Source: Myxococcota bacterium (GTDB taxonomy: Bacteria; Myxococcota_C; UBA6777). From it: a stretch of DNA of 55,665 bases. The DNA lies in assembly GCA_023150835.1 (NCBI GenBank), contig JAKLKB010000031.1, positions 1 through 55,665 on the forward strand, written 5' to 3'. The notes below the pieces were generated by a model. It did no database searches. It was not told the DNA's origin and saw only the letters and a list, made by a program, of their open reading frames with translations. Shown one piece after another: positions 2,579-53,600 of the stretch (position 1 is the first letter of the stretch; every line of letters begins with the position of its first letter). The position numbers and the translations under genes were made by a program.

Positions 2579-3012
2579 ATACGGTATCCGAGTGATGTGT
2601 GATCGAAGGAGAGTGCGTAGACGCCCTGTAATAGGGCAGCCACAGGGGGCATTTGATCCAACTAATTCATTTCGAGTTCAAACCTGCGAACGATCATATC
2701 GGACAGTGCGGGGTTTCGCACCTCACCCCTGTCAAAGGCGGACGTCCCCATGACCCACGGGCGCAAACAAGGTTTGCTGCGCGTTATGGGGAAAGCAAAG
2801 CCAAAGTCTCTGCCGTCCGTAAGCTTTTTTCCCCCACCTCGCCTCTGCGACAGCAGGGAGAGGGGGGCTGGGGGGGGTGAGGGTCAAACGACGTATTGCC
2901 ATTTTTTTCAACAAAATCAAATTCTTCGTAAAAATGACGTCCAATTAGTTGGTCCAAGTACACACCTGTCTGCCCCTACTTCTTTACGATCACACAATGG
3001 GCGGATTTCGTA
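2579..3012 (+). mobile_element. Palindromic MITE-like element, copy 1 (split by an insert)
   Basis: The left half (2579-2644) begins ATACGGTATCCGAG and carries TGTGTGATCGAAGG and a GGGCAGCC arm. The right half (2961-3012) carries CTGCCCCTAC, CGATCACACAATGG and ends GCGGATTTCGTA. The two halves together equal one member of the dispersed family also found at 34016 and 42559. They are separated by about 316 bp with its own inverted-repeat ends. The left half continues as the CAGGGGGC core subtype while the right half is the CACCTGTCTG subtype, so a rearrangement between copies is an alternative to simple insertion. Confidence 0.7.
2645..2960. mobile_element. Inverted-repeat insert inside MITE copy 1
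   Basis: Near its ends are TTGATCCAACTAATT (2653-2667) and AATTAGTTGGTCCAA (2943-2957), inverted repeats matching at 14 of 15 positions. The segment is bounded by CACA at 2641-2644 and 2961-2964, which could be a target duplication or the residue of a palindrome. Inside lies a G-rich stretch (about 2850-2885) of the kind found in many bacterial intergenic palindromes. It has no plausible transposase, so it would have to move in trans. The length and short direct repeats fit a small non-autonomous element, but with one copy in view this remains an inference. Confidence 0.45.
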
Positions 3013-3217
3013 CGATACGGTGGAGTCGACCGTTTTGGGCATCACCTTCAAAGACTCGGGTTCGTTTAACCTTGAACGACCCTAGCTGCTTTTCTTTGCC
3101 GCGACAGCCGCTTGTTTTTCCTTGCGCGGGTGGATGTGGATCGCTATCTTCGGGGCTTTGGGCGTGTGAATCGGCATTCACCTGCGGATCGCAGAGGACG
3201 GATAGGAGGGGCGCGTG

Positions 3218-8600: not shown

Positions 8601-8908
8601 GGAGCCATCCAGACTATTTTACGCGCCAAAGCCCCCTATTCTCCGCCAACAAGATCCACACCCCCCTACTCCTCCTTCACGGTAGCCACGACACCAACGT
8701 CCCCGCCATCGAAAGCTATCAGATGTACGCCGCCTTGCGACTGCTCAAGCGGCCTGTCGAGATGGTCGTCGTCAAAGGCGAAGACCACTGGATCCTTCAA
8801 CCCAGCAAACGCATCCTCTGGAGCCACACCATCCTCGCATGGTTCGATCGCCACCTCAAAAAACAACCCCTCTGGTGGACCCGCCTGCACGGGAATCAAT
8901 CCTACTGA
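5651..8908 (+). CDS. Secreted S9-family prolyl oligopeptidase-like serine peptidase
   Basis: The start is ATG 5651, preceded by GAAGGAG about 7 bases upstream; the frame is open further upstream, but that part is the repeat element. The protein has 1085 residues. A signal peptide (residues 1 to about 32, ending RAHA|A) implies export. Next come 12-residue tandem repeats beginning SDATAQ, a 41-codon segment that is an in-frame palindromic element, and a Pro/Ala/Lys-rich linker. A beta-propeller-like region occupies roughly residues 400-820. The C-terminal alpha/beta-hydrolase domain has the full triad: Ser932 in GASYGG, Asp1014 in HGSHDTN and His1046 in GEDHW. S9 enzymes of this DPP-IV/acylaminoacyl-peptidase type cleave short peptides. 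The N-terminal 200 residues are longer than usual for the family. Confidence 0.9.
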   Translation: MPIRPPQHTPPRSFLPCCTAATVLLTSAVFGFASPRAHAAPPKASDATAQPHPPKDSDATAQSTHPKASDAMKSAHGVIAKRRGSPLWLPNQRASTADRTTLRSHTSRISDATAQPTPSKSPNATKRTTTTVSAAPSIVRKVRPTTKPAASASLAKTKIKPKTPAAKAAKTPKPAPRPLRAWLLLGPTPLPLPLFSKDKEGSYKETQLLADEHLDQERLRPQIGQEVPWLGGRSLRWRPWGGGSISRKSPLPQAAWAATWLHTTRYTEGTLILRSHQRLRVLLDGKTISTQATCTPAKASKPAAVTASSAAKPTPPPASLPTTATDPRDLLMLRMAQILERQSQLIERQTAMLGGMLQQAQAQAKSPTIPTLRVSLKLTPGLHRIVIKTLATQDCLPHWGLEATLEATDAPSLRAITAERIPTFYHSIDFVLYRKYITAHSLSPDGKHIALLMQKLHPNGHHEYWSELRDAQHGHLLHSLRAVGALRDLQWSPNGRYYSFSTIIKGLGAIWRVDRQHGSVRLLRSGLRGLWGHAWVHDSRTIVYNASLPLTPTETEKAGLLRLRGMFDRLPWHRNRSHIYAMSADGTMHLRLTAGYWGNDTLKLHPSAPKILFRRSIPDDKTRPFRKSALFELDLRTLQITRILDNLGSFFGASYAMNGDAILISGGPSLFGILGHAPDLPPSTVPNDYDGEIYLYHRKTKQITCPTRTFDPSVERAFWHPLTQKIYLNALHRTRRLLYELDPKNGQIRPLAHAKGLDILSQLRAGRQTHSLTYIGSGLQHTESLYRLDLRTGRSKLLYDPNQAASQHLQLGPIADWDVTLKQGEQRDGHVFYPPGFDPRKRYPLIVYYYGGTYPVTRTFDGRYPFHLWAAQGYVVYVLQPSGAIGFGQRFSARHVNEWGTLVPSEIIQSTRLFLRAHPFIDPKRVGCIGASYGGFTTMSVVTKTRLFAAAISHAGISNIPSYWGGGYWGYLYSAISAAHRYPWSHPDYFTRQSPLFSANKIHTPLLLLHGSHDTNVPAIESYQMYAALRLLKRPVEMVVVKGEDHWILQPSKRILWSHTILAWFDRHLKKQPLWWTRLHGNQSY
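5783..6013 (+). repeat. 36-bp in-frame tandem repeats interrupted by an element
   Basis: Units starting TCGGATGCTACGGCAC lie at 5783, 5819 and 5855; the third is interrupted after TCGGATGCTA and resumes at 5978. Each complete unit is 36 bp and encodes 12 residues (SDATAQ plus a variable half). The displacement of the interrupted unit is 123 bp, exactly 41 codons. Confidence 0.8.
5863..5980 (-). mobile_element. Palindromic MITE-like element, copy 3 (inside a CDS, in frame)
   Basis: The copy runs from TATGAAATCCGC to TCTCGAATATCG, with the core GGGGCAGCCCCCTGTGGC and GATCACACACCTC. It is in the opposite orientation to copies 1 and 2. It lies inside the S9 peptidase gene and is translated as roughly residues 71-111 without a stop. 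The 10-bp sequence TCGGATGCTA occurs at both junctions (5855-5864 and 5978-5987), which fits a target-site duplication, although the host is itself a tandem repeat. Confidence 0.8.
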
Positions 8909-8927
8909 TCGTTGTCTTTTGGTCTTG

Positions 8928-9197
8928 TGGGGCGCTGCCCCATACGCGTTAGGTTAAGGCGGAAATACCGGAGAGTCGAGGATGATCGCTCTTTCTTTTG
9001 TCGGCCCCCCCTCATTCCCCCCGGCCAACGGGGGGGAAGTTGGAGCAGGCAGCGTCTGCATTTCGTGCATACAGCGCACGTCATGAAAAAACAAAATCCC
9101 CGATGCTTCCGACTTTCGCTCCCTCCCCTGTTCACGGGGGAGGGCGGGGTGGGGGGCTTTCCTCCGCTTCACCTAACGCCTATGGGGCGCTGCCCCA
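8928..9197. mobile_element. 270-bp element with ~35-bp inverted-repeat ends
   Basis: The left arm 8928-8963 begins TGGGGCGCTGCCCCATA and continues CGCGTTAGGTTAAGGCGGA. The right arm 9163-9197 is its near-perfect inverse (TCCGCTTCACCTAACGCC then TATGGGGCGCTGCCCCA). The interior has two G/C-run palindromes (about 9003-9035 and 9118-9155) and no credible gene. The TGGGGC/GCCCCA ends are themselves palindromic. It is most likely a non-autonomous mobile element or a large intergenic palindrome; no target duplication was identified. Confidence 0.6.
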
Positions 9198-9487
9198 AAC
9201 CCCGCCATAGACTTTCGCCCCTTGACCCCGTATCGACGGTGGAAGTCTTGTGCTCGAAACGGCGACTCTGGCCTTTCGATACACCACGACCACGCCTTGT
9301 TTTCAAAACGCAGCCAGCCGCACACTTTTTCGCACGCCTTGTTCCCCAAAAGCCCGTGTTCGCGCCATGTCAAGCGGGATCGTCGTTGGTTTGAAAAAAC
9401 ATCCGATCGCTCCGCCAATACGGGGTCCATAGAGCCGCGCTAAGAAAGTGGGGTATGGGGTGAAACCCCACGAAAAATCCAACTATA
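9198..9487. other. Intergenic region between convergent genes
   Basis: No gene is supported here. TGACCCCGTAT near 9223 and ATACGGGGTCC near 9418 form another inverted pair about 190 bp apart. The GCGCGGCTC-type sequence next to the right arm recurs at 21042. At the 3' end of the helicase gene (9450-9473, read on the minus strand) is a GTGGGG...CCCCAC hairpin followed by TTTCTT, possibly a weak terminator. Confidence 0.4.
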
Positions 9488-11314
9488 TCAAGAAGACTTT
9501 TTCTTTTTTGGACGTTGTGAAGGTGTGGAAGGGGCGGAGGTGTGGGTGTTGGGGGGGCTTGATTTGGGGGCGTGGGTTTTGGAGGTTTGGGGATCGGCGG
9601 ATCGGCGGCCACCGTGAGGGGGGCTGCTGCGCGGGCCGCGAGGAGTGGCTTTGCGGGGAGCGGTGCGTGCGGTGCGGCCTTGATCGCTCGGTTTTCGGGC
9701 GCGAGAGAGGCCGCGATCACTTTCGCGGAGGTCATCTTTGGACAAGGATAAGTCGCGAGAGTCGAGGACATGAAGAGAATCGAGATGTTTTTGCAAGACA
9801 GCGCGCACCAATTCGAGCGCCTCTTCGGGGGGGATGGATTCGAGAAGTTTGTCGGTGATCCGTCGAACATTGCGATGCGCAGGGGTTTCAGCAAACTGCA
9901 TCAGCTCGGAGAGATGGCGTTGTGCGATGTTGGTGAGGATCTCGTGTTGCGAAGGCAGTTCGAGGTGCTTGAGGGGCAGTTCAAGGGCCTTCATGTGTGC
10001 GCGATAGCGATAAAAGGTTTGGGGTGTCACCAAGGTCCATGCGCGGCCATCTTCACCAGCGCGCCCAGTTCGACCGATGCGATGGGTGTAGCTTTCGAGA
10101 TCGGGAGGCACGTCGAAATTCAAGACCAGCGGCAGGGCTTGGATATCGATCCCACGGGCCGCGACGTTGGTAGCGACGAGGTACTGGAGACTGCTGCTGT
10201 GAAAGCGTTTGAGGGTATCTTCGCGGGCTTCTTGGCTGAGATCACCGCTGAGGGGGGCGGCATTAAAGCCGCGAGATTCGAGGGCGCTGGCGACTTCGCG
10301 ACATTCTTCGCGGGTGGCGCAAAACAGCATCGCTTGTTTTGGGGCATGAAAGAGCAACAGGTTGATCAAAGCGCCCAAGCGTTGGTCATTTTTGACGAGA
10401 AGGCAAGCATGTTCGATATTGGGGGGGGTGGCGTCTTCGGCGGAGAGATCGAGGCGTACGGGTTGACGCAACATCTTTTCGGTGACGCGGATCATCTGTT
10501 TGTCGATGGTGGCCGAAAAGAACAAGACTTGGATCTCGGTAGGAAGGGCATCTTTGACGACGTTTAATTCTTCTGCAAAGCCGATATCAAGCATCTGATC
10601 GACTTCATCCAACACAAAGCATTGGATCTGCTTGAGTTGCAGAGAATTTTGGCGGATCAGATCGGCGATCCGTCCCGGGGTTCCGACGACGATATCGACG
10701 CCATCGCGCAAAGTCTTTTTTTGGCGTGCGTACGAAGATCCACCGATAATCGAGAGGCAGCGCAAGCCAAGCGTTGCGAGAGTGGTCGAAAAGACGGCCT
10801 CGACTTGGTTGGCAAGTTCACGAGTGGGGGCCAAGACCAAAGCGCGGGGTTGTCCGTCACGAGAAGGGCCGCCGAGCTTCAAGCCGATGGGAAGGGCAAA
10901 AGCAAGCGTTTTGCCTGAGCCTGTTTGGGCTTGCACCAAGACATCACGCCCATCCATCGCGGGGCCGATGGCAGCCTTTTGAACGGGCGTGGGTGTGGTG
11001 ATGCCTTGTTCTTGAAGAACGCGCTGGATGGACGCAGGCAAAAAAGAAAAGTCTGTATAAGAAGGGACCGCTCCCTCTGTGGAGGTGCTTTGTTCTGGCT
11101 GCACTGCGGGAGAAGCCGAAGGATTCGGTTGGATCGCAAAAGAGGCCGAAGTCTTGGGTGGCGCGGCGACAGGGAGGGTCGCGGAGGCGTTGGATTCGAC
11201 AACGCGGGCAGTTTTTTTCGATGGCATGGGATCTTTCGTTGACACATTCTGAAGGGGTTGAGGAACCGAGAGGCGTACGGTTCTCTTTTCGGAAGAGAGA
11301 TCGATGGGGTTCAT
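9488..11314 (-). CDS. DEAD-box ATP-dependent RNA helicase
   Basis: The protein is 608 residues counted from ATG 11314; a TTG 18 bases upstream is possible. About 90 disordered Pro/Ala/Ser-rich residues precede the helicase core. Motifs in order are the Q motif (TPTPVQKAA), motif I AQTGSGKT, PTREL, TPGR, motif II DEVD (instead of DEAD), SAT, ARGID and HRIGRTGRAG. The C-terminal tail of about 115 residues is basic and Pro/Ser/Arg/Lys-rich, ending in a Lys run, as in RNA-binding tails of RhlE/DeaD relatives. It unwinds short RNA duplexes, probably in ribosome assembly or RNA decay. It is the only gene on this strand in its neighbourhood and has a leader of about 230 bases. It is clearly distinct from the second helicase at 44056-47028. 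Confidence 0.92.
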   Translation of the reverse strand: MNPIDLSSEKRTVRLSVPQPLQNVSTKDPMPSKKTARVVESNASATLPVAAPPKTSASFAIQPNPSASPAVQPEQSTSTEGAVPSYTDFSFLPASIQRVLQEQGITTPTPVQKAAIGPAMDGRDVLVQAQTGSGKTLAFALPIGLKLGGPSRDGQPRALVLAPTRELANQVEAVFSTTLATLGLRCLSIIGGSSYARQKKTLRDGVDIVVGTPGRIADLIRQNSLQLKQIQCFVLDEVDQMLDIGFAEELNVVKDALPTEIQVLFFSATIDKQMIRVTEKMLRQPVRLDLSAEDATPPNIEHACLLVKNDQRLGALINLLLFHAPKQAMLFCATREECREVASALESRGFNAAPLSGDLSQEAREDTLKRFHSSSLQYLVATNVAARGIDIQALPLVLNFDVPPDLESYTHRIGRTGRAGEDGRAWTLVTPQTFYRYRAHMKALELPLKHLELPSQHEILTNIAQRHLSELMQFAETPAHRNVRRITDKLLESIPPEEALELVRAVLQKHLDSLHVLDSRDLSLSKDDLRESDRGLSRARKPSDQGRTARTAPRKATPRGPRSSPPHGGRRSADPQTSKTHAPKSSPPNTHTSAPSTPSQRPKKKKSS

Positions 11315-13515: not shown

Positions 13516-16179
13516 TTAGGGCCTGCGCCATACGCAACGAAAGCCGATGGCATCGTTTTGTGTGTCAGGCGAAGCGTGGCGCAGCGAAAAAGTCGTGATC
13601 TCTTGGCTGAGATTTTTCCATGACCCCCCCGCGATGTAGCGGGTGGCGCAGGTCAAGGACGCGCTTTCGGCGCAGTCGCGCAACCACTCCCAGACGTTGC
13701 CAGCAAGATCATACACCCCCTGCGGGCTTCGGCCTTGTGCGCGATGGCTCGATCCGACAGGCTGCGCCCCGCTGCCACATCCTCGATAATGCGCGTATGC
13801 ACAAGAAGGCGTCGCCTCACCCCAAGGAAAGCGTTGCATCCCGTCACCACGCGCTGCACGCGCCCACTCGATCCGCGATGGCAAGCGCTTTCTGGCCCAA
13901 TTGCAATACAGATCTGCATCTGCCCAACTGACATGGATCATCGGGTGGTTTTCGGGAAAGCTTTTCGAGACAGGAGTGTTGCGGAAAAAGCCCGTGTAGA
14001 CTTCTTTGCATACTTTTTCTTGCATACATCTTCGATACTGCCGAACGGTCACTTCAAAGCGATCCAGCCAAAAGCCATGCACACGGCGCACGGTTCGCCC
14101 CCATTGAATGGGGCCTTCGGGGATATAGGCCATTGGAGCGATCGCGAGGACATATCGGGGTGGGCGAGGCGGAGAAACAGGGAGGGCGGGAGGGCGCGGA
14201 GGATCGGGGGCTTTGTGTGCCACCCGAACAAGCCGCCGCCGTCGTCCAAATCGGCGCTTGCGCGGAGATCGAGTGACGGGGTCGGTGGATTGTGCTTCTT
14301 CGACGGAAAGCTCGGGATGATCGGGTTCATGGAGATCGCCTGCGTCATCGTTTTGGGCGGAAGGTTCTTGATGTGCGATAGGTTCGGCAGAAGAGAGGGG
14401 CGCTTCGACGGAAGAAGCCGATGGATGGGCAGGCAAAGAAGGCACAGGCGATCCGGCGTTGGGGGTGGGAGTGGAAACTGCGACAGGAGCGGGCGTTGGT
14501 GTAGGAGAGGCTGATGTTGCGAGGGCTTTGGGATGCTTTGGCGTCGAAGTGGCGGCTTTCTTTTGTGTGCTGCTGTAAAGCAACGCCACAGCAAGCGCGA
14601 TCAAGGCGAGACTTGCGAACAACATCAGCAAGGCAGGCCACGGCAGGCGCTTGGCGGGGGGTTTGCGCACAGGAAAGGAGATCACATCAAGCTGGGTTTG
14701 TGTGGGGTGCGCAGAGGGCGAGATCGCGGCAGCAGCTTGTCGATAGGCATCTAGCGACGAAGGAGCAGCAGGATACCCCCCGATTTGGGTGGGTTCTTGG
14801 GAGAGTGGGATATCCTCTTGTTCGGCGCGCAAGGCTTCATCGACAGCGCGCTCCAAGGCAGCGTCTTCTTCGGCTTGTGCGCGCTGTTTTGCAGAAGCGT
14901 TGGTGTGCCTTGGCGGTGGGGCATCGGAAGCACGCGGAGAAGCGACACCGGTGTTGTTGACGGGCGAAGAGGGAGAAGTCGAGGCAAGCATCGAAAGATC
15001 GCCGAGCAGTCCGGGGCGCTGGATGGTGGGAGAATAGAGATCTTCTTCTTGTCCCAAAGCGATATCGCCGATGGGGCGGCCCTGTTTGTGGTGCGATTCG
15101 GAAGCGCCGTCAACTGGGGTAAATTGATGCCCGTCGGTGGGTGTGCCGATGGGAGTCGAAGGATACGAAACGCCTGCGGGGTTGGGCATTCCTCTGTTGG
15201 AGGAAGGAGGACGCGAAAGGGTATTTTCGGGATCGATCATGGGCGGGCGAGGAAGAGTGGCGTAGCTTTGGCGTTTGGTCGAGGCTTGGGTGGCGGCGTT
15301 GTTGTGGTTGAATTGTGCGAGGGCTTCGTCAGAAAGGGCTTGTTCGATAGCGCGTTGAAAGGAGAGGCAGTCTGCAAAGCGTTGGGTGGGGGACTTGGAG
15401 AGGCTGCGCAAGACGATCTCTTCGAGGGCGGGCGGAAGATGCAGACCGAGCGAAGAAGGCGGTGGGGGGGGCAAGTGGATGTGCTTTTGCAGCAGTTCAT
15501 AAGCTCCTTGGCGCGTGCCGGGCGGCTCAAAGGGAGTGAAGCCACAGATGGCTTCGTAGAGAGAGATGCCGACGCTGTAGATATCGGTTTGGGGATTGGG
15601 TTCTTGGCCTTGGATCTGTTCGGGGGCCATATAGCAAGGCGACCCCAAGACCACGCCCACATCGGTCAATCGGGAGTCTGCACGCGCCATCGCGATCCCA
15701 AAGTCTGCGATCTTGACGAGCAGATCATCACGCACCAAGAGATTCGCAGGCTTCATATCCCGATGCACCACACCTTCGCGGTGCGCGTACCCAAGCCCCG
15801 CCAATATCTGCGAAAAGATCTCACGCAATACCGCAAGTGAAAAACACGGACGTTGCGAGATCGTGCGCAAGATCGACCCCAGATCCCTGCCGGGAACATA
15901 CTCCATCACAATGAAGTAATCGCCGTCTTCTTGCAAAACAGTACGGATACCCACGATGTTTTGATGAACCAACCGCGACTGCGTGCGGGCTTCGCGCAAA
16001 AATCGCTCAGGATCGATCAAGACGCCTTTTTTTCGTTTTTTGAGGTACTTGATCGCCACAGGGACATGCAGCAACAGATCCATCCCACGAAAGACGACCG
16101 AGGGTCCGCCTTCTCCCAAAAAAGCCTCGATCTGATAGACATCCTTGAGGACGCGCCCGATCAGTTCTTCGTGGCTCAC
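13516..16179 (-). CDS. Membrane Ser/Thr protein kinase fused to a formylglycine-generating-enzyme-like domain
   Basis: The protein has 887 residues. The start is GTG 16179 with AAGGAGG about 7 bases upstream, overlapping the previous stop codon (GTGA). The Hanks-type kinase domain spans about residues 12-290: glycine loop GEGGPSVVF, VAIK lysine, catalytic HRDMKPANLL, DFG and APEQ. A disordered, Pro/Ser-rich juxtamembrane region follows, then one transmembrane helix (about 512-535). An extracytoplasmic Pro-rich stalk leads to an FGE-sulfatase (SUMF1) fold (about 680-887), with WLDRFEVTVRQYRRC, HPMIHVSWADADLYCNW and LAGNVWEW as family signatures. The GGSW motif is not followed by the CxxxxC active-site pair of genuine FGEs, so this domain probably binds a ligand instead of making formylglycine. 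The most likely role is a receptor kinase sensing something outside the cytoplasmic membrane. Confidence 0.93.
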   Translation of the reverse strand: MSHEELIGRVLKDVYQIEAFLGEGGPSVVFRGMDLLLHVPVAIKYLKKRKKGVLIDPERFLREARTQSRLVHQNIVGIRTVLQEDGDYFIVMEYVPGRDLGSILRTISQRPCFSLAVLREIFSQILAGLGYAHREGVVHRDMKPANLLVRDDLLVKIADFGIAMARADSRLTDVGVVLGSPCYMAPEQIQGQEPNPQTDIYSVGISLYEAICGFTPFEPPGTRQGAYELLQKHIHLPPPPPSSLGLHLPPALEEIVLRSLSKSPTQRFADCLSFQRAIEQALSDEALAQFNHNNAATQASTKRQSYATLPRPPMIDPENTLSRPPSSNRGMPNPAGVSYPSTPIGTPTDGHQFTPVDGASESHHKQGRPIGDIALGQEEDLYSPTIQRPGLLGDLSMLASTSPSSPVNNTGVASPRASDAPPPRHTNASAKQRAQAEEDAALERAVDEALRAEQEDIPLSQEPTQIGGYPAAPSSLDAYRQAAAAISPSAHPTQTQLDVISFPVRKPPAKRLPWPALLMLFASLALIALAVALLYSSTQKKAATSTPKHPKALATSASPTPTPAPVAVSTPTPNAGSPVPSLPAHPSASSVEAPLSSAEPIAHQEPSAQNDDAGDLHEPDHPELSVEEAQSTDPVTRSPRKRRFGRRRRLVRVAHKAPDPPRPPALPVSPPRPPRYVLAIAPMAYIPEGPIQWGRTVRRVHGFWLDRFEVTVRQYRRCMQEKVCKEVYTGFFRNTPVSKSFPENHPMIHVSWADADLYCNWARKRLPSRIEWARAARGDGMQRFPWGEATPSCAYAHYRGCGSGAQPVGSSHRAQGRSPQGVYDLAGNVWEWLRDCAESASLTCATRYIAGGSWKNLSQEITTFSLRHASPDTQNDAIGFRCVWRRP

Positions 16180-27383: not shown

Positions 27384-30300
27384 CTATCCGTCTTCGCGTT
27401 CGCGGAGCATGGAGAGGGCGTGTTGAAGGGCGTCAAGGGCCTGATCTTTTTTGGCTTTTTCTTGGGCGACTTGTTGTTGAAGGCGATTGGATTGGGTGGA
27501 AGTTTTTTCGATGTGGGATTTGAGTTCGTCGCGTTCTTGTTCGAGAGTGCGGTTCTTTTGTTCGAATTCGCGTTTGATCAGATCGATTTGGTTGCGTTCG
27601 TGGCGTCGTAGGGATTCGAGATCAGAGAGTTTTCCGCGCAGGTCGTCGACTTGATTTTGGAGGGTATTGTAGCCCAAAGCAGCGGATTGTTCGGCCTCAC
27701 GGGCCGAAGCAAGCGCGGATTCGGTTTTTTTGATCTGGGCGGCGAGGTCGCGTTCGCGCTGTTCGAGTCCTTCGATGATGGCCTCAAAACGTAGGCGGGC
27801 TCGGCGTTCGGCTTCTTCGATGCGTTTTTCGGACTCGGCTTGCCATTCGGCTTCACGGGCTTGTCGATCGCGGACGGATTCTTCTTTTTGGGTGCGGATC
27901 TGTTGGCGAAGCTGACGCAGTTCTTTTTCGGATTGGGCGAGGATCTGGTGGCTTTGTTCTTGGAGGGCGATCTGAAGGGCTTCCATCTCTTGCTGGTGTG
28001 CGGCGTGGAGGGCGTCGGCCTCGCGCTGGAAAGCCTCGCGCAGCGTGCGTTTTTCGGAATGAAAGGAGATCTCTTGTTCGGCGAGGATCTCTTGTTGGGT
28101 TTGACGGGCTTGACGGCGGTCTTTGTCTTGTTCGGCGAGGAGGCGTTCGACATCAAGTGCGTGTTCTTGGCGTATTCCTGCGATGATCTCGGCATGTTGG
28201 CGTTCGCGAGCATCAAGTTCTCGTGCGAGCAATGCTTCGAAGCTGCGTTCTTGTTGTTGGAAACGGCGTTCGAGGGCTTGTTCTTGGCGGAGGGAGTGTT
28301 CTTGGTGGAGGCGGAGAGCTTCTTGGTGTTCAGCGGAAAGCCGCAGCATGGCGTTTTCGTGTTCTCGTTCGAGGTGCTGCATCACTTCTTGGGCTTGTCG
28401 GCGCTCGGTTTCGAGGGCGGATTGATGGGTGATTTGGCTGGTTTCGATGTGTTCTTCGTGTGCGGCGAGTTGATGGGTGAGGCGTTCTTGTTCGGCGTGC
28501 AGGCGGGTGAGTTCGGCTTGTTGGGTGGTGGTTTTTTGTTTGAGTTGGAAGGTTTCGGTTTCCAGAAGGATGGCGCGTTGTTTCCAGTCATCGAGGGATT
28601 TTTCAGCGTGATGGAGTTGATCGAGGACGCGCTCTTGTTGTTCGGACTCGCTCAAGCGGTTGTGTTGTTCGGCGTGCAAGAGTTCGCGCAAGGAGCGTGC
28701 TTCACTTTCGAGGCGTTCGGTGCGTTCTTGGACATCAAATTTTTCTTGCTCTAGCACGACGTTTCGATGGCGAAGCGCCACCAGTTCGGCTTCCATCTGT
28801 TCGGTGGAATCGCCGATGTTTTGGAGTTTTCCTTGGGCGCGATCGAGTTCTTCTTCGAGGGTGGCTTGTTGGTCTTGCAGCGAAGCGATCTGTTGGCGTA
28901 AGAGATCTTCGACTTCGAGGCGATTGCGGGCATCAGCGCGTGAAGCGTCGAGATCTTCTTGGAGTTGCGTGATCTCGTCGCGGAGTTGTTGTTGTGCGGA
29001 TTTGAGGCGGTGGCCTTGTTCTTGTGCCTCGAAGATCGCAGCATCGGCCTTTTCGAGTTTACCGAGCAAGGCGCGTCGTTCGGATTCGAGCGCTTCGATC
29101 CGTGTATGTTTGGTGGTTTCAGCTTGAGAGAGTGCGCGATATCCGGTCTCACGGGCGGTTTCGAGATCGACGCGCAGCCGTCCGAGTTCTTCGCGGAGGA
29201 CTTGCATGGCGGCGTCGTGTTCTTCGAGCAAGGCGCGGCGTTCTTCGGCATGGGATTCTTTCAAGCGCTCGCGTTCATCGGCGTGTTGGTGGAGTTGTTT
29301 TTCGAGGCGTTCTTTGTCGATGCGTATGCTGTGGAGGGCGTGTTCATCTTCGCGGGCGGTTTGTTTGAGGGCATCAAGTTGGGCTTCCATCTCGCGATAG
29401 CGCGAGGAAAGATATCCGTGATCGTCGCCGAGGCGGTTGATCTCTTCGCGCAGGGATTGAAGCTCTCTCTCGCGTTCTCCGAGTTGCGAGAGTAGTTCGT
29501 CATCGTTGAGGGATTGGGCGTGGACTTGGGTACGAAACCCTGCGAGCTCGCCGCGAAGCTCACAAGCGGCTTGGATCTGTTCTTCCAAAGCGGCCTGTGT
29601 TTCGAGCAGTTCGGCACGTTGTGTTTCGAGCATCGTTTCGCGTTCGTTGCACAAGCCTTGATAAAACAGCACTTGTTTTCGGGCATCGTCGACTTCGATC
29701 GCAAGGGAGGAGAGTTGTTCTTCGAGGGCTTCGACTTCTCCGCCGCGTTTGGAGAGTGCGTCGCTATGGGATCGAGCGTGTTGTGCGGCTTTTTCGGCTT
29801 GGGCGTCAACTTCGATCTGCAAGCGTTGTCGTTCGCGTTCGAGATCTGTGATGCGTGCGTAGAGATCGTTGGTTTCGTCTTGAGAGGCTTCGTGTTGGGC
29901 TTGGGCTTCTTGTAGAAGTCGTTGGAGCCGCCCATTTTCGTCTTGAAGGGAGGAGATCTGAGTGGAGTCGTCGATCGAGTGGGTCTGAAACAAGACACGG
30001 GTGGGGGATTCTCCGGAGTCCTCGTCGGCAGCGTCATGAAGGATGCGCGTGGGAACTTCGGAGTCATCGCCATCGGCTTGGGTCGCTACGGCAGAAAGAC
30101 GGGTGGGTGCGTCGTCTTCTTCGGATGCAAGGGCCTGTTCGGTTGTAGGCTTGGCTTTGCCCTTTGCGGACGGTGTTTTTGTGGAGGCAGAAGGATCGCG
30201 CAGCGCTTTGTTTTCGTGGCGCAATCGTTCCAGTTCTTCTTGAAGTCCATCCATCTGTTGCGCAGCCAAGGCTTTGGCCAAAAGCTCGGGATAAAGGGCA

Positions 30301-32132
30301 AAAGCATCTTCGTCTTGTTGATGGAGTGCGATGATCTGTTTGCGCAACCAAACGCTTTCTTTTCGGACGGCGCGCATCTCTTCTTGGAGAGCGTCGTTAT
30401 CGCCCTCCTGTTGGGCGTCTTGCAGCGCAGCATTGGCTTTTCGTAAAGCGTCGGCCTCTTCCAAAGAGGCTTTTTGCTGTCGGCGCAGTTCTTCGGCTTC
30501 GTCGCGAGCACGTTTTTGTTCGGAGCGCAAACGCTCGATATCTTCGCGTGATCGCTGTTGTTCGGAGCGCAAACGCTCGGTCTCTTCGCGTGATCGCTGT
30601 TGTTCGGAGCGCAAACGCTCGGTCTCTTCGCGTGATCGCTGTTGTTCGGAGCGCAAACGCTCGGTCTCTTCGCGTGATCGCTGTTGTTCGGAGCGCAAAC
30701 GCTCGGCCTCTTCGCGTGATCGCTGTTGTTCGTTGCGCAAGCGTTCGGCTTCGTCGCGAGCCTGTTGCTGTTCGGAGCGCAAGCGCTCGATCTCGCTTTG
30801 AAGCTGTTTTTTTTCGGTGCGCCAGTTCTGTTCTTCGTCGCGTGAGCGCTTGGGTTCGGCCTCAGTCTCGGGGCGGGAGATGTGGACGGGTTCTCTCGAT
30901 TGGATCAGCGCATCAAGTTCGGCTTGGGCGTTGCGAACGGAGAAAGCACTGGCCTCTTTGTTGGCGATCTTGGACTCGGGCGCACCGAGGGGAACCAGCG
31001 AAGGGAAGGGTGGGAGAGCTTGCATCTCCGAGGTTTTGGGTCGCGGGGGTTCGGAGGAAGTCACCAAAGCCGAAGGGGGTGGCTGAGTGAGCGGGCGTAC
31101 GGGGATGGAGGGATTGGTTTGTGGACGGGGCGGCAGCGGGGCTCCTGTGAGTGATGGAAACGGCGCGAGTCCGCCTGTTTGAGGCGAGAAAGGAGAGTTT
31201 TTGCTAGAGAGGGAAACCGCTCGTAGTTCGGTCGAAGCGGCAGCGGCGATTTCGGGAGAAGAGCCTGCCCATGCGCGCCCAATCGAGGCAGAAGCTCCTG
31301 CGACAGGTAGCGGTGTTTGCACCCCCGAAGCAAGGGAGCTTGTGGAGTGTTGCACAACAAAAGCATCGGTCGCAGCGTTTTCACCCCGCGCCAAGGCGGG
31401 GGCAGGCGTCGGGCGAGCAGGAACTTTCGCGATGATGGTGCGATCCGCATCGTCGAGGTCATCGTCTGAAAACCCCGAAGCTGGCCCTTGATAGATCTGT
31501 CCGGCTCGTTCTTCGATTGCTTCTCGGATGGCGCGGCGGTGCTTTTCTTCGGTGATATCTTCGGCGCTCAACAAGAGATCTCCGTCTTCGTCGTCGAGAT
31601 CGAGCTCTTCTTCTTCCGAACCTTCGGGGACCAACGTGCGATCGACATCCGACGGGCCGCCGCCCAGTTTGGCGCGTTGTCCTGCGGCGGGTAAGTTGGG
31701 GTTGGTGTCGGAGGTTCCTTGTCCCGCACTTGGGCGTTCGGCGGCTTGCGCGGAAAGCATCAATCCCCCCAGCATTCCGAGCAATTCGTCATGGTTCAAT
31801 GGCATCATCAAGTAGCCTTGCGCTCGGGTTCTCAGGCGTTGGTGTTGCGAGAAGCTTTCTTCGGTGGCTTGGGACGAATACAACACCAACGGTATCCCTC
31901 GCAAGCCATCACGCCGCTTGATCCGATTGCACACCGAATAGCCGTTGCGGCGGGGGATCTCGACACGCAGCAAGATCACATCAGGCCGACGGGCCGGATC
32001 TTCTAGCTCGTTGAGAGCGATCAATCCATCCGCGACCAATTCCACTTCGTAACCGCCTTGCAAAAGCACGCGCTGTAACGCTTGGGATGTCGTTTTGTCC
32101 GATTCAATCAGAAGTATCCGCGCCTTTGCCAT
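27384..32132 (-). CDS. FrzS/AglZ-like pseudo-receiver with giant coiled coil
   Basis: The protein has 1582 residues; ATG 32132 has AAGGTGGG about 6 bases upstream. Residues 1-125 form a CheY-like receiver fold (ARILLIESDKTT at the start, RRPDVILLRVEIP, IPLVLYSS, YLMMPLN), but the phosphoacceptor Asp is Arg56 and the conserved Lys is Met110. A disordered region (about 130-430) is rich in Pro/Ser and acidic residues and contains repeated DADRT/SPTR-like motifs. From about 430 to the end the protein is heptad-rich coiled coil (Glu/Gln/Arg/Leu), partly built from 14-residue tandem units. Myxobacterial FrzS and AglZ have this same receiver-plus-coil plan and act in polarity and motility. The analogy is good, but identity is not proven. 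The gene is divergent from the M48 peptidase. Confidence 0.85.
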   Translation of the reverse strand: MAKARILLIESDKTTSQALQRVLLQGGYEVELVADGLIALNELEDPARRPDVILLRVEIPRRNGYSVCNRIKRRDGLRGIPLVLYSSQATEESFSQHQRLRTRAQGYLMMPLNHDELLGMLGGLMLSAQAAERPSAGQGTSDTNPNLPAAGQRAKLGGGPSDVDRTLVPEGSEEEELDLDDEDGDLLLSAEDITEEKHRRAIREAIEERAGQIYQGPASGFSDDDLDDADRTIIAKVPARPTPAPALARGENAATDAFVVQHSTSSLASGVQTPLPVAGASASIGRAWAGSSPEIAAAASTELRAVSLSSKNSPFSPQTGGLAPFPSLTGAPLPPRPQTNPSIPVRPLTQPPPSALVTSSEPPRPKTSEMQALPPFPSLVPLGAPESKIANKEASAFSVRNAQAELDALIQSREPVHISRPETEAEPKRSRDEEQNWRTEKKQLQSEIERLRSEQQQARDEAERLRNEQQRSREEAERLRSEQQRSREETERLRSEQQRSREETERLRSEQQRSREETERLRSEQQRSREDIERLRSEQKRARDEAEELRRQQKASLEEADALRKANAALQDAQQEGDNDALQEEMRAVRKESVWLRKQIIALHQQDEDAFALYPELLAKALAAQQMDGLQEELERLRHENKALRDPSASTKTPSAKGKAKPTTEQALASEEDDAPTRLSAVATQADGDDSEVPTRILHDAADEDSGESPTRVLFQTHSIDDSTQISSLQDENGRLQRLLQEAQAQHEASQDETNDLYARITDLERERQRLQIEVDAQAEKAAQHARSHSDALSKRGGEVEALEEQLSSLAIEVDDARKQVLFYQGLCNERETMLETQRAELLETQAALEEQIQAACELRGELAGFRTQVHAQSLNDDELLSQLGERERELQSLREEINRLGDDHGYLSSRYREMEAQLDALKQTAREDEHALHSIRIDKERLEKQLHQHADERERLKESHAEERRALLEEHDAAMQVLREELGRLRVDLETARETGYRALSQAETTKHTRIEALESERRALLGKLEKADAAIFEAQEQGHRLKSAQQQLRDEITQLQEDLDASRADARNRLEVEDLLRQQIASLQDQQATLEEELDRAQGKLQNIGDSTEQMEAELVALRHRNVVLEQEKFDVQERTERLESEARSLRELLHAEQHNRLSESEQQERVLDQLHHAEKSLDDWKQRAILLETETFQLKQKTTTQQAELTRLHAEQERLTHQLAAHEEHIETSQITHQSALETERRQAQEVMQHLEREHENAMLRLSAEHQEALRLHQEHSLRQEQALERRFQQQERSFEALLARELDARERQHAEIIAGIRQEHALDVERLLAEQDKDRRQARQTQQEILAEQEISFHSEKRTLREAFQREADALHAAHQQEMEALQIALQEQSHQILAQSEKELRQLRQQIRTQKEESVRDRQAREAEWQAESEKRIEEAERRARLRFEAIIEGLEQRERDLAAQIKKTESALASAREAEQSAALGYNTLQNQVDDLRGKLSDLESLRRHERNQIDLIKREFEQKNRTLEQERDELKSHIEKTSTQSNRLQQQVAQEKAKKDQALDALQHALSMLREREDG
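30541..30750 (-). repeat. 42-bp tandem repeat in coiled-coil region
   Basis: Five units of 42 bp start at 30541, 30583, 30625, 30667 and 30709 (first bases TCTTCGCGTGATCGCTG). The first four differ at only a base or two; the fifth is more divergent. Read on the minus strand, each encodes 14 residues such as RLRSEQQRSREETE, two heptads. More divergent units flank the array on both sides. Confidence 0.9.
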
Positions 32133-34151: not shown

Positions 34152-37100
34152 TCAGGAGACGGGATGGCGAGGAAGGATCGCGTCTTGGTGTTCAAGGACG
34201 ATGGTGGGGGCGGGTTCACGGAGCTTTCCGTCAGAGGTGAGTTCATAATGAAGGGCTCTGAGTTGTGCGCCGGGGGCGTGGACAGAGACACGAACGCGAT
34301 CTTTTTCGACCCAGTACTCGGCATAACGCTCGGAGGTTGCGGCTCCCGGAGTGACGATCTCAAAGCCGCGAAGATAAAAGCCAAGCCATTCTTCGATCTT
34401 GGAGCGAACCAAACGCACGCCTGATTTTTGTAAGAAAAAGACGAGATGTTGATCGCAAGCGCTCTGTTGATCGAGCGTAAGGCGAAGAGCGCCTTGGGAT
34501 GGGGTGGAGAGAGAGCGCAAAGACGCCAGCAGCCAGCCGTTTTCCAGTTCATAGCGCAAGCGCAAGCGATAGAGGGTGGTTTGCTCTTGGCGGATCTCCA
34601 AAAAGGCGTCAAGGTGGGTGCGATCCGTGTCGATCTCTTCGCAAACAAAGCGCAGCCCGCTGTGTTCGAAGGCTGGATCGCGATGCAATGCGGCGATCAG
34701 ATCGCGGTCCACAAAGCGCCGAACATCCTCGGCGACGTGGTGCAGATCGTGGTGGACGCGATGGACTTTGTCTTCGTCGTAGTACAAAAAGCTTTTCTTG
34801 TAGGCTTTGAACAGTTTTTCATAGGCACGCGGCAAAGTGCCCGAGTGAAAGCCTCGCCGCAACAGCGCGTCGACCGTTTCGCCGTGCGATCCCACCCGAA
34901 CAGCGGCAGGAGACGCAGGCTGATTGGCGCGAAACAGCTTCCAGTTTTCTTTGAGTTCCCACGCCAAGAATCCGCAAAGCCCGGGCAGCCCGAATTGAAA
35001 AAACAAGCCGACGATCCAGATCACAGAGCGAGCAAAACCCGCACTTTCCATCACGGTGATGATCACGATGGTGGCAGGGATCAGGAGTTTGTGAGAGATC
35101 GTGACGATCGGAAAGTGTTTCACGGGGTTGAGTTGCGGTTCTGCGACGAGATTCACGCTGAGTCGGATCAGGTAGGTCACACCAAACCACAGACTTTGGA
35201 GGATGCTTTTGATCCAGATGACTGCGCGGCCTTCGCCTTCATGGAAACGCAACATATCGTCCACCCGATAGATCGCGTAATCAAGCGCGATCAAGAAACG
35301 GCGAAAGACCTCCAAAGTCCAACGGATCAAACCGACCACGAGGTGATCACGGATCTGCGACCATAAAGCGAGCAGACGATACGCCAGCCAGTCCCAAACC
35401 GCCCGTCCGATCGTTGTATTCAACAAGAAGTACAAAAATCCCGCCCACACCAATACGCTCAAAAACTGCCATCCAAAGGGCACCTGATAATGCAGGATCT
35501 GCGGATACAGATTGCGCATCGTCACACGCCACGCGGTACTTCCGACGAATGTAAAGGCCAGCGCCACAAATACAGGCAGCACGATGTGGCGATACACAAA
35601 AAAAGCCCGAGGATGCGTCAAGACCAGTTGTAGCCAAGGGTGACGGTACAGCCAACGCGGTCCCTCGATAAACAAAAAGCGCAAGGCCATACCGAAGCTC
35701 GACAAGATCCGCCGAAACAGATCCCAACCTGTTTCGGTGTGCATCACGCCATACATCAAAAGACCGAGGACAAGCACACTTTGAAAGCCGACATAGTCCC
35801 ACAGATGAACCTTCGGTAGCTTCAGGCTGTAAAGCGTCGCATCCATCACCCAAACAGGTACGCTTTCCCGAACGACGAGGATATCGCTATAAGAAAAATA
35901 AAACAGGATGTGGTTGCGCAAAAAGGCGTTGAAGTACTCGACCACGATCCCAAACGTCATCAAAAGCGCAACGGCCCCACCAAAGGGCAACAGCAGATTC
36001 AGACAGAACCAACGCCCCCAGATCGTGCCAAAAGCCAGCGCCGAAAACCGTTGGTTCAGGCGAAGGTAGATCTCACCCGAGCGATAGATATCGTGAAAAC
36101 GCGGCTGTAAGGCTTCGTTGAGCTTGATCAAGATATCACCATGAAGAAAGTCACGCCACGTCGAGGTGGGAAGGCGAAGATCGTTGCGGCTGATCACATC
36201 GCGCATATCAGAGAAACTAAACTGGCCCCTGCGCACCACAAGATCCATCAAGTCGTCGCGGATACGCGCTTGGGCGACTTCTTCACGCAACGAAGCTGGG
36301 ACCAATCCGACTTTGTTCATCGCCTCGATCAATCGAGGCCCAAAGGTTTCGCGGACGCTTTGTTCGATGTAGTGGTTGGCTTGATGGATCGGGATCAACA
36401 AGCGTTCAAGGCGTTGTTCGGGCAGAGGGAGCCCTTCGAGGCGACGCAACGTCACTTGGAGATAGTGCATCGCACGGATCATCCCGTAATGATCGAGCGG
36501 GATCTGGAGGGGGACTTGCCCTTTGTGGCGGATCCATCGGGCAAGCCGCGTGACAAAAAACAAACGCTCTCGATCAAGATAACTGCGTTGCATGGATTTT
36601 AAACTGGCCGCTGCGAGCCGTCCAAGTCGCGACGACAACGGCACAGAAAGCAAAAGCGCGATCAGTTCGGACAAACTGCGCAAAGCAGGTCCTTGGGTTG
36701 GATAATGTTCGCAAAAGCGCGTCAATAGGGTATTTTGGTAGCTTTGCTGTTGAACGATCAGCTCGTTTAAAAACCCACGACTGGCCTCATCTGCGACCAT
36801 CCCGCGAAAAAAACGGATGGCTTCGCCGCATTGAAGGGCAGCTTCGGCCTCGTTTCCGCGCCATTCTTCTGCAATGGCCCATCGATAGGAATGAACGAAC
36901 TCAAACACTTGTGTGCGCAAAGCTTGTCGCGCCGCAAAGCGCAGCAGAAACATCTGGAGCTTCGATGGACTCGGCGGGTTCGCGGTTTCGGCAGCATCTT
37001 GGGCCTCAGCATGACGATGCGTACGCGTCAAAAACGGCATCACAGAGATCCAGCGCCCCCAAACACGCACTTGAAACCACCACCACAACGACGAGATAAC

Positions 37101-38390
37101 CAGCCTCGTCAACTCCAACGCGGCGCTACGTTTTCGCAGATGTTGGCTTTTTTCGGCACTGGCATCTCGCAAAAGACGTGCTTCGCGTTGGCATCGCTCG
37201 CTGGCTCGGCGCAGATCTTCTTCGTCGAGGTACGACAGCCAAGCAGGGCGGCACCAAGCAGGGAGGGCGTGGGCGTCGCATGGATACGCCGTTTTTTCAA
37301 GCGAGCGAACAGCTTGAACCTCGGAAGCATCGGCCGCAGAGAGCGCAAGGTGCTCCACCGAAGTGACCGACAGATCCGCAGGGATGAGGACGTGGTGAGA
37401 AGCAGGAGCCTCCGCGATCTTGTCGGCAGGATCGGAGTCTTCATCCCCTTGTTCAAGATGACGAGACCACCACTGCAACGCGATCTCGGCCTTGTCCTCG
37501 TTGCGAACAGGCGTCGAAAAGTGCGCAGTATCGGCCATCGAAAGCAACATCGCGCAGCGATCTTCGCCTCGTGCCAACTGCCGAGGGATCGGCGTTTCGA
37601 CTGCGGGGCAGCACGCGGAAACGATATCTTCGATCGGAAGGCCCACTTCACGCAGCCAAGCATCTAACGCTCCTGCGTGGATGCTTGGGAACAACTCTGC
37701 ACGCCAAGAAGATGCAAAGACCCCAAGACCCGCCCACCACGCAACGACCGTTGTCGCGACCTCTTCGTCGTCCAGAGCATCTACCAAAAAACGTTCGCGA
37801 GAAAAAAAACCGCGCATCCCTTCAAACGCCGTGTGTCCAATCACAGCCCGAAGCCCTGCGGCCCTTCGATCCAGCCGTTCCCAAGCCCCCATCAACGCTC
37901 CGATGCTGCACCAAGACCAATAACGCCACCAGATATGCGCCGCAGGCGCTCGCTTGAGTTGGCGATGCGTCAACTCTTCGATCAACAAGACCTTTGATGG
38001 AAGTGTTTTGCCAAGGATTCCTTTGGCGAGCTCGGGTTCTTCTTCTTCGAGGATCTGCACAAATGCAGCAGAATCCATCCGAACTACGGGCGATTCGGGC
38101 GGGGGTTCTAGGCGTTTTAATCCAAAGTGGTGCAAAAAGATACGCCGCCGCGAACGCTGATGAAATACAAACACCCCTTTTTCGGGCGACTGGATCACAG
38201 CACGAAGCTGCTCGCTCGTCAGATGCGTCGAAGGATGAGGAGAAATGGATCCTTGCAAGCGCGACACGTCCAAATTCGTCGAAATGTCTGGGTGGGCGGT
38301 AGGCTCGGTCAACCGTGAAGGCGATGCGGGGCTTGAAGATGGCGGCGTTTCAACATCCGCCGAGCGAAGGTGCGGGGATTTTTCGGACAT
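34152..38390 (-). CDS. Very large membrane protein of unknown function
   Basis: I do not recognise the family of this 1412-residue protein. The start ATG 38390 follows AAGGAAG by about 9 bases. The first 60 residues are Ser/Pro-rich and disordered. Residues about 110-820 are largely helical and soluble-looking apart from a Trp-rich stretch near 440. At least six strong hydrophobic segments fall between about 850 and 1160 (for example LLLPFGGAVALLMTFGIVV and FLSVLVWAGFLYFLL). A cytosolic C-terminal domain of about 230 residues contains conserved-looking charged motifs such as YYDEDKVHRVHHDLHH and FVCEEIDTDRTHLD. The central motif FSFSDMRDVISRNDLRLP is striking and may be family-defining. It lies 118 bp downstream of clpA on the same strand and may belong to that transcript. 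Confidence 0.75.
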   Translation of the reverse strand: MSEKSPHLRSADVETPPSSSPASPSRLTEPTAHPDISTNLDVSRLQGSISPHPSTHLTSEQLRAVIQSPEKGVFVFHQRSRRRIFLHHFGLKRLEPPPESPVVRMDSAAFVQILEEEEPELAKGILGKTLPSKVLLIEELTHRQLKRAPAAHIWWRYWSWCSIGALMGAWERLDRRAAGLRAVIGHTAFEGMRGFFSRERFLVDALDDEEVATTVVAWWAGLGVFASSWRAELFPSIHAGALDAWLREVGLPIEDIVSACCPAVETPIPRQLARGEDRCAMLLSMADTAHFSTPVRNEDKAEIALQWWSRHLEQGDEDSDPADKIAEAPASHHVLIPADLSVTSVEHLALSAADASEVQAVRSLEKTAYPCDAHALPAWCRPAWLSYLDEEDLRRASERCQREARLLRDASAEKSQHLRKRSAALELTRLVISSLWWWFQVRVWGRWISVMPFLTRTHRHAEAQDAAETANPPSPSKLQMFLLRFAARQALRTQVFEFVHSYRWAIAEEWRGNEAEAALQCGEAIRFFRGMVADEASRGFLNELIVQQQSYQNTLLTRFCEHYPTQGPALRSLSELIALLLSVPLSSRLGRLAAASLKSMQRSYLDRERLFFVTRLARWIRHKGQVPLQIPLDHYGMIRAMHYLQVTLRRLEGLPLPEQRLERLLIPIHQANHYIEQSVRETFGPRLIEAMNKVGLVPASLREEVAQARIRDDLMDLVVRRGQFSFSDMRDVISRNDLRLPTSTWRDFLHGDILIKLNEALQPRFHDIYRSGEIYLRLNQRFSALAFGTIWGRWFCLNLLLPFGGAVALLMTFGIVVEYFNAFLRNHILFYFSYSDILVVRESVPVWVMDATLYSLKLPKVHLWDYVGFQSVLVLGLLMYGVMHTETGWDLFRRILSSFGMALRFLFIEGPRWLYRHPWLQLVLTHPRAFFVYRHIVLPVFVALAFTFVGSTAWRVTMRNLYPQILHYQVPFGWQFLSVLVWAGFLYFLLNTTIGRAVWDWLAYRLLALWSQIRDHLVVGLIRWTLEVFRRFLIALDYAIYRVDDMLRFHEGEGRAVIWIKSILQSLWFGVTYLIRLSVNLVAEPQLNPVKHFPIVTISHKLLIPATIVIITVMESAGFARSVIWIVGLFFQFGLPGLCGFLAWELKENWKLFRANQPASPAAVRVGSHGETVDALLRRGFHSGTLPRAYEKLFKAYKKSFLYYDEDKVHRVHHDLHHVAEDVRRFVDRDLIAALHRDPAFEHSGLRFVCEEIDTDRTHLDAFLEIRQEQTTLYRLRLRYELENGWLLASLRSLSTPSQGALRLTLDQQSACDQHLVFFLQKSGVRLVRSKIEEWLGFYLRGFEIVTPGAATSERYAEYWVEKDRVRVSVHAPGAQLRALHYELTSDGKLREPAPTIVLEHQDAILPRHPVS

Positions 38391-50669: not shown

Positions 50670-53600
50670 TTAGTTGCAGATCGCTTTGTAGGTGACGTCG
50701 ATGCGGGCCGCTTGGGGAGGTCGTGTACTTGAAGCGAACACGATCGAGTTAGAGGCCGCATCATAAACCCAGCCATTGTTGGGATCTTGGGGGACGATCG
50801 CGCCGTTGACCTTGACTTGGAGAGTGAGGGGTTCAGGACTACGGGAGAGGAAGAATTGTTCGAGCAGGCCAAACGAGATCGCCCCAAGGCGACTCAGCGT
50901 GGTGGCCCAATCGGACGAACAGATCGAGGCTTTTTCGCCCCGCAGCGCTGCTGCAAGATCCCAGTAACGTGGTGCGGATCGAGCGGAGATGCTGGTTCCA
51001 CTGGTGCGACAGCCGTTCGGTGGAGGCCCAACGACCGCCGAACCGCGCACAAGGTTGGCATTGCGAGCACCTTTGAGGTTTTGAAAGAAACTTAGATAAA
51101 ACCCGTAGCTTTTTGGCGATTGATCTTCTTCGTCCGAAACAAACACCAGCGACAGCGACGCATCATCCCGATAGAACAAGTGGTTGCACAAGGGGCTGTC
51201 TTTGACGGGTTGTGTAAGCGCCCGATAAGCGGCTTCCAGTCCTTGTTCGGAGCCGCTGCCGCGTGTTCCGACGTTGGCCATCTTTTGAAAGACTCCCGAT
51301 GGATCGGATGTTTTTGTGGTGATAAAGTGATGCTTTTGTTTTTTGTCATCTTCGACTTGTTGCAAACAGCCGGGTGTTCCGCTGCGTCCCGTCATGTCGG
51401 TGTGCGTGACACCGATGTGATAGTCCACATTCAAGCGGCTGGCCCAGTTGATAAAGCTGACAAAGTTTTGAGCGAGTTCTTGTTGTTCGCCGCGCATCGA
51501 GCAAGAGTTGTCGACGACAAAAAGGATATCGACGGAGGGTTGGTCTTTTTGTCGGAAGGTATCGGTTTGTGTATCTTCGGAAACGCCTGAACCTTCGAGG
51601 GGAACGGACATCGGGGATTGGGGAGTAAAGGAGTGGACGATCTCAAGGAAGTCGCGATCCAAGCCCACGTGCTCGGGGCGATAGCCCAAGGATATCTCGA
51701 TGGATTGGCCGACGGTGAGCGGAAAGCCGCTCGGTGGGATCGGGGGAGAAGTGCTTTTGATGCGGAATGCCTGTGTGGTCTGGCCGCCAAGTTGGACTTT
51801 TTGGAGGGTGATCCGTGAGGGACAGCCCGTTGCGCCGACGTGATACACATGCACCTTTTGATCACGCGCCGCACAAGTAAAGCGCGAAGGCCCGAAGTCT
51901 ACAAGGCGTGGGACCACTTCGAGGCAAGGCGAGCCAAACGCCCCGCGCAAGACAACTTGCACAAAAGCCGCCTCACCTTCGGGAGTATCAAGGCGCAAGA
52001 GGCCCTCATAATTGCTCGACTGGGTCGGTGCATAGCGAACAGGCAAAGACAGCACCTGACCGACAGGGACTTCGAGAGGAAGAGAGGGGGGCTGTGGCAA
52101 CGTAAAGGCGGTGTGTTTGGAAGGCACCGTCCCTTCGGTCTTTGCGCCGATCACGCGACAAGGCGAACGACCGATATTAAAGAAGGTGGCCGTCAGGATC
52201 TTGTCTTGGCCGCTTTGGACGATCTGAAAGTTGAGGGTTGTCGGGTTGGCGATCATCGCGCATTTTTCGGGGCGTGGGATCACGGGGATCAAGACGACTT
52301 CTTGGGCGGGTTTGTCAAAGTCGTTGCTGAGGATATCGGCGATATCGGGTGTAGCTTTGGGATCGATGGTGTGTTGCACGCGCATGGTTCGGCTGGCGTT
52401 TGGAAAGATCAGATCGCGAGTCGATGGGATATCCTGCAACGCGAAGACTTGTGTTTGTCGAAAGCGCAACGACACGCTTTTGATCTGGCAAGGCTCGTCG
52501 CCTTCGTTGCGCAAGGCGATGGGACGGGATTCGGCCTGCGTAAACTCGATCAGGGTGGGAGCGACCGCGAGCTTGCAGCCGATGGCAGCGGCTTCGACAT
52601 CAAGGCGGGCTTCGGGCTTCTCAAAGGCATCGCTCAAGACCACGAGTTGACCTTTGTCTTTGAGGTTGTCGGAGGGTTTGTAGAGGACTTCGACGGGGCG
52701 TTCTTGGTTGGGCGCAACCACGAAGGGCGCAAAAGGCAGCGCGAGGCCGAGGTCAGGGCTGGATTCGGAGGTCCACACCATGCCCGTCACACGCAAGGGC
52801 GCATTTCCCGTGTTGCGCACAAGAAATGTCTTGCGTTCTGTTTTCGAACAATCCAACCGTTCGTCGAGCAATTGGCAGTCGAGTGTTTGTGTACACGGCG
52901 GATACTGCGGGATCAGAGCGATATCGGGGGCGATGGTTTTCCCGCGCACAGCGATCTGCGCTTTTTCTTCGTCACTTTCGGCAGGCAAGTTGGTTTCGAG
53001 GATGTAGATCCCCTCATCGATATCTGGTGAAGCATCCGAAGGTTTGTAACGGATGCGGATCGTGACGCCCGATCCATCGGGTGGGATGCGCAAGGGAAGC
53101 TCGGGCGAAAGCCAAGCAAAGTCGCTTGGTGCGTTGCCCTCTTTGCGTTTATAAGAAAAGCCATTGAGCAAAAGCGGCGCAGTTCCGGCGTTTTTGACTT
53201 CGCAAGTGAGTTCTTTGGATTGGCCGAGGGGGACTTCGCCAAAGTCGAGGGCATCGCCACAATCAAACAAGGGGCCGAACTTTTCGCGTTCTGCGGGCAT
53301 CGGGACATAAAAATAGCCGTCTTCGTCCGTATTATCGGCACTGGGAGCAAAGAAGCGCATACGAGCGTTGTAGACACCGGGCCGACGGGCGCGAAAGCGC
53401 ACCGAAAAAGACACCGCGTGTTGGATGCCGGGCGCAAGCGTAAACGGTTTTTGCGAGGACGGAGACTGGAGGATCGCGTAGATCCCTTCGGGATCATCGA
53501 CGATTCCGAACGAGATCACATTCAAGGGTTGCGTGCCGTCGTTGTACAACAAAAAAGGGCGTGTTTGGATAAAGCGTTTGCCCTGCTCAAAGCGCAACAC

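Follow-up and report, generated by a model that had tools for sequence, protein, structure and literature searches.

The 55,665-nucleotide stretch analysed here (the window) carries on its minus strand a gene for a 1,582-aa protein that, judging by its sequence, belongs to the FrzS/AglZ pseudo-receiver family, which helps gliding bacteria tell front from back. The protein is probably the FrzS/AglZ-type scaffold of its lineage, present in one copy and acting in the MglA polarity pathway, with a receiver that would serve as a docking surface independent of phosphorylation. The open reading frame, strand and length given in the first-pass annotation were confirmed, and the gene is under purifying selection, since the orthologue of the genus-mate KLAP109 (G001) is intact, with 94.4% amino acid identity, and the whole-gene dN/dS between the two is 0.104. 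In the same comparison constraint is strongest on the receiver (dN/dS 0.055, 98% identity), and receiver and linker (0.059) are both held more tightly than the rods (0.11-0.19). The gene and the parts of its receiver needed for the phosphorylation argument are the following:

27384..32132, minus strand: FrzS/AglZ-family gene (pseudo-receiver, linker and coiled coil), ATG start, 1,582 aa
31749..32132, minus strand: pseudo-receiver domain, residues 1-128 (Pfam PF00072, 4.7e-13; PDB sequence match to FrzS 2gkg, 1e-16; model pLDDT 87)
31965..31967, minus strand: codon of Arg56, which takes the place of the phosphoacceptor (FrzS Ala53, CheY Asp57); the AglZ-type and the three own-lineage rows all have Arg
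31803..31805, minus strand: codon of Met110, which stands in for the conserved switch Lys (FrzS Lys105), with Ile in the AglZ rows and Lys in all 28 'other' family rows

The AlphaFold model, obtained from a five-sequence input, has a mean pLDDT of 87 and the alternating beta/alpha topology of receivers, and residues 1-128 are predicted to adopt a receiver fold without the phosphorylation machinery. It had been proposed that the phosphoacceptor Asp is replaced by Arg56 and the conserved Lys by Met110, leaving a domain that cannot be phosphorylated in the usual way. Both positions were confirmed, and Ser11 adds a third loss, as it matches FrzS Ser10 and occupies the site of CheY Asp13 (the acidic-pocket or Mg-binding Asp). 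All three residues depart from the canonical response-regulator set (Asp phosphoacceptor, second acidic Asp and switch Lys), which the 1,582-aa protein lacks, and the proposal stands. A canonical Asp displaced by one or two positions was considered and rejected, because PDVILLRVEIP aligns without a gap with the PDLILLDVMMP of ordinary receivers and no Asp is hidden near Arg56; the nearest acid is only Glu58, which corresponds to FrzS Asp55, a residue dispensable in FrzS, whose change to Ala had no motility phenotype (PMC1974792). The pseudo-receiver interpretation is therefore kept.

The comparison with FrzS and AglZ, originally drawn from a common layout, goes beyond layout and amounts to family membership, because it is supported both by a split in the receiver tree and by a gap in profile scores. 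In the tree of 77 receivers, 35 family members (FrzS, AglZ and the query among them) separate from 42 ordinary receivers on a branch with support of 94/90, which is good but not maximal, so that the query falls outside the ordinary phosphorylated regulators. With the family receiver profile the 1,582-aa protein scored 187 bits and the runner-up among the receivers of its genome 76, although the profile was built from nine receivers including the query, whose own score is high by construction. A PDB sequence search also ranked FrzS best (1e-16), the best protein other than FrzS reaching 2.5e-10. The predicted structure itself gives no preference for FrzS over ordinary receivers: FrzS (2i6f) ranked second in one fold search of the receiver model and was not among the 50 best matches listed in the other, and such searches do not discriminate because hundreds of receivers match equally. 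NCBIfam returned only sub-threshold receiver and SMC-like matches for the protein. FrzS and AglZ have been described as paralogues without a working phosphorylation site, a loss that is family-wide, with single-copy relatives outside the Cystobacterineae (PMC4546325); this single-copy picture fits the 1,582-aa protein, but its rod is of AglZ size.

Three further features of the receiver concern what the family holds fixed:

31842..31844, minus strand: codon of His97, the counterpart of FrzS His92, which S-motility requires (PMC1974792); His is present in each of 43 family receivers and in none of 42 ordinary ones
31812..31814, minus strand: Tyr107 codon (FrzS Tyr102, the essential switch Tyr; PMC1974792), invariant in 43 family receivers
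31830..31943, minus strand: segment alpha3-beta4-alpha4 (residues 64-101), the densest in family-specific conservation

Across the 43 family receivers the phosphoacceptor position is variable, being occupied by Arg, Ala, Cys, Thr, Ser or Asn, and position 58 is acidic in all of them. Mutation of either His92 or Tyr102 abolished S-motility in FrzS (PMC1974792). Positions were ranked by how well they separate the family from ordinary receivers, the family residue having to occur in at least 75% of rows; of the top 20, 12 fell within residues 64-101, a segment that makes up 38 of the 130 residues (p 0.002). In FrzS the corresponding alpha3-beta4-alpha4 face is reported to dock onto SgmX after MglA-GTP, by binding SgmX, has exposed the site (PMC12632262). 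A phosphorylation site that is free across 43 receivers, together with an alpha4 His, a switch Tyr and an alpha3/alpha4 face that are fixed, gives evolutionary support to the docking-surface model of pseudo-receivers.

Behind the receiver, the protein consists of a long linker and an interrupted rod:

30873..31748, minus strand: disordered acidic and Pro-rich linker (residues 129-420) that carries acidic-Thr-hydrophobic motifs at T166 and T232 (Pro/Gly- and acid-rich composition, no heptad signal)
30333..30872, minus strand: first block of coiled coil (residues 421-600), in which the z of heptad periodicity reaches 4.2
30516..30794, minus strand: 42-bp (14-residue, double heptad) tandem repeat, 6.6 copies, within the first coiled coil
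29928..30332, minus strand: rod break, residues 601-735, with three [DE]xPTR[LIV] sites
27387..29927, minus strand: second and longer block of coiled coil (residues 736-1582), in which the z of heptad periodicity reaches 8.1

A coiled coil is present as the first-pass annotation had it, but the 1,100 residues assigned to it are slightly too many, the two blocks adding up to about 1,030 with the break at 601-735 between them. Nor is the disordered linker, of about 290 residues, unusual as had been suggested, given that the linker of FrzS is likewise acidic and Pro-rich. The units of the 42-bp repeat are fewer and divergent in the genus-mate, and the region has the highest dN/dS of the gene (0.186). 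The unstructured parts contain five acidic-Thr-hydrophobic sites (T166, T232, T677, T695 and T711), and no other protein of the window has more than two. A D/E-x-T-hydrophobic-hydrophobic...Pro motif occurs in proteins of the same lineage, in FrzS (in the linkers) and in AglZ (in the tails), amounting to 12 of 42 against 1.4 expected by shuffling, a statistic that is inflated because the motif was found and chosen post hoc. One might guess that these sites serve for Ser/Thr phosphorylation, as kinase sites or for docking. The last helix ends alike in FrzS-like proteins (KALVIAQQLLDE in FrzS) and in the present gene (LDALQHALSMLRE, from 27387 onward), unlike the AglZ tail, and this pattern is possibly a conserved rod tip.

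The lineage was represented by five genomes (G000-G004), which are the whole phylum in the genome collection used. All five are of one family and 6.6-10.8 Mb in size, and the record of KLAP109 is labelled Myxococcota although the collection places G000-G004 in a separate phylum. A FrzS/AglZ-like gene was found in four of them, and no match was found in G002, a draft of about 930 contigs. The mglA gene is present in 5/5, with 83-84% identity (84% in the query genome) to what we take to be the M. xanthus MglA; this query is close enough for the purpose, because it matches at 97% in a Myxococcaceae genome and at 84% in the query genome. A roadblock (MglB-type) gene lies directly upstream of mglA in each of the five, and each also has PilT-family ATPases above the curated cut-off. 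In a wider sample, MglA occurs in 18/18 genomes with a FrzS-like gene and in 19/58 without one, a count that ignores kinship among genomes that were partly hand-picked.

Within the window, no motility or polarity gene was found beside 27384-32132, whose neighbours are a divergent M48 peptidase (kept in G004), a 1,412-aa protein, ClpA and an Ig-repeat surface protein. The 1,412-aa protein (34152-38390, minus strand) has no Pfam or NCBIfam match and has a 40% identical homologue near the orthologous locus in G003. In that same genome (L052, C34), two MglA-LRR genes (6065-7843 and 7966-9720, minus strand) are divergent from the orthologue with about 270 bases between; their products, of 592 and 584 aa, combine an N-terminal MglA-like GTPase domain with C-terminal leucine-rich repeats, an order other than that of Roco proteins, which have N-terminal LRRs and a COR domain (PMC4316618). 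In G048 (L131, C93), a genome outside the Myxococcota sample, a short FrzS-like gene (48-1298, plus strand) also has an MglA-like gene about 0.7 kb away, which encodes a GTPase of 346 aa (2024-3064, minus strand) with a long acidic C-terminal extension. Elsewhere in the window, an 887-aa protein (13516-16179, minus strand) fuses a Pkinase (Ser/Thr kinase) domain to an FGE-sulfatase (formylglycine-generating-type) domain, and two neighbouring proteins (50670-53753 and 53787-55628, minus strand) have Ig-like domains of the ASH/HYDIN/Cep192 type, which are best known from cilium and centrosome proteins.

A profile search of the Myxococcaceae returned two proteins. The first, about 560-640 aa long, has a receiver that matches 2gkg (FrzS); the second, of 1,304-1,428 aa in the sampled full-length frames (1,395 in the Myxococcus genome, G135), was taken as AglZ from its length and layout. 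The existence of the latter does not support the earlier view of the query as unusually long. With FrzS (Myxococcus xanthus; 2gkg, 2i6f) the query has in common a receiver at the N-terminus that lacks the phosphoacceptor and has Ser as its second acidic-site residue, the essential His and Tyr, the acidic and Pro-rich linker and a C-terminal coiled coil; FrzS differs in its length (562 aa in the sampled Myxococcus genome), in Ala53 instead of Arg56, in a Lys105 that is mostly kept and in its shorter rod, with a coiled coil of 235 residues (PMC4546325). With AglZ of the Myxococcaceae it shares Arg at the phosphoacceptor site, a hydrophobic residue at the Lys position (Ile in AglZ-type receivers, Met or Ile in the three own-lineage orthologues), a rod of about 1,000 residues and a similar total length, whereas AglZ has a short linker, a conserved C-terminal tail and a receiver only about 31% identical to that of the query. 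The single-copy FrzS-like proteins of other Myxococcota share with it the signature xELPxMSGYSxCNxxKK ... TxETFxQHxxLKTxAxxYL, the single copy and the coiled coil, and differ in usually having Cys or Ala at 56, in always having Lys at 110 in our sample and in being mostly 360-740 aa long, with two of about 970-985 aa.

It is conceivable, though unlikely, that the protein is an offshoot of the AglZ branch and works with a gliding machine instead of type IV pili, which would make the AglZ type older than the Cystobacterineae. Among the sampled receivers, only those of the query lineage and of AglZ combine Arg56 and a hydrophobic residue at 110 with a rod of about 1,000 residues, and the first tree, of 77 receivers, joined the two at 98/94. 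However, that join disappeared with wider sampling and removal of the two trait columns, after which the AglZ sequences, on a very long branch, grouped with FrzS (80/78) and the query clade stood apart without a supported placement; specific AglZ orthology is not claimed here. Moreover, comparison of the C-terminal tails did not find the AglZ motif DW[TS][AS]LVD[ED]LDK at the query C-terminus, and the AglZ duplication has been placed in the ancestor of the Cystobacterineae (PMC4546325). The chances are close to even, if slightly below, that a single-copy protein of the FrzS type separately gained Arg56, lost the Lys and lengthened its rod while placing type IV pili as FrzS does, a finer version of the scaffold explanation and compatible with it. 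Such independent elongation accords with the single copy in G000, G001, G003 and G004, with a best tree that puts the query among the single-copy FrzS-like proteins, with f59 relatives (L110) that carry Arg56 and keep the Lys, and with pilT in the genome, but the tree placement is without support and AU tests gave p 0.13 for the query with AglZ and 0.20 for the query with FrzS, no alternative tried being rejected. On sequence grounds, we assign the query to the FrzS/AglZ family as a whole and call it an orthologue of neither.

More distant from the scaffold explanation is a structural coiled-coil filament with a cytoskeletal or cell-shape role, in which the receiver would be a decaying relic. 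The long coiled coil with its weak SMC-like similarity would suit a filament, and AglZ is called filament-forming in the title of Yang 2004, as cited in PMC4316618. Nevertheless, this reading is improbable, because a relic would not stay the most constrained part of the protein (dN/dS 0.055, 98% identity) with the residues essential in FrzS retained. Hardly credible at all is an ordinary phosphorylated response regulator with odd residues, for although the sequence passes the general receiver model PF00072, it has no Asp in the phosphoacceptor position or beside it, no Lys, and Ser in place of the Mg-binding Asp, and it lies outside the ordinary receivers in the 77-row tree.

For the preferred reading, that of a single-copy scaffold in the MglA pathway, we infer the polarity role from FrzS, in which the pseudo-receiver binds SgmX and the coiled coil localises the protein to the pole (PMC11580455). 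By analogy, the coiled coil of the 1,582-aa protein would dimerise and set it at the cell pole, as in FrzS, or along the cell, as in AglZ, and the receiver would be a constitutive docking surface with no phospho-switch. Its alpha3-beta4-alpha4 face may bind an MglA-GTP effector, which could be a TPR protein like SgmX or some equivalent; the nucleotide state of MglA, and not a histidine kinase, would then set the timing of partner capture. In this way the protein would help to position, at the leading pole, type IV pili or some other motility machine. We also put forward, tentatively and as somewhat doubtful, that the set of traits known from AglZ (an Arg-locked receiver, loss of the Lys and a rod of about 1,000 residues), here outside the Cystobacterineae in the only FrzS/AglZ protein of its lineage, means either that AglZ-type effectors are older than the proposed Cystobacterineae duplication or that a long-rod, Arg-locked MglA effector evolved twice, and that the MglA-LRR proteins may be GTPase partners in one relative.

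The FrzS/AglZ family is known already; what is new is a further member, in this lineage, with the residue pattern of AglZ. It extends a scaffold best known from myxobacterial motility to a sparsely sampled lineage outside the classical myxobacteria, and it offers a comparison with AglZ for the question of whether Arg at the phosphoacceptor site is a functional lock.
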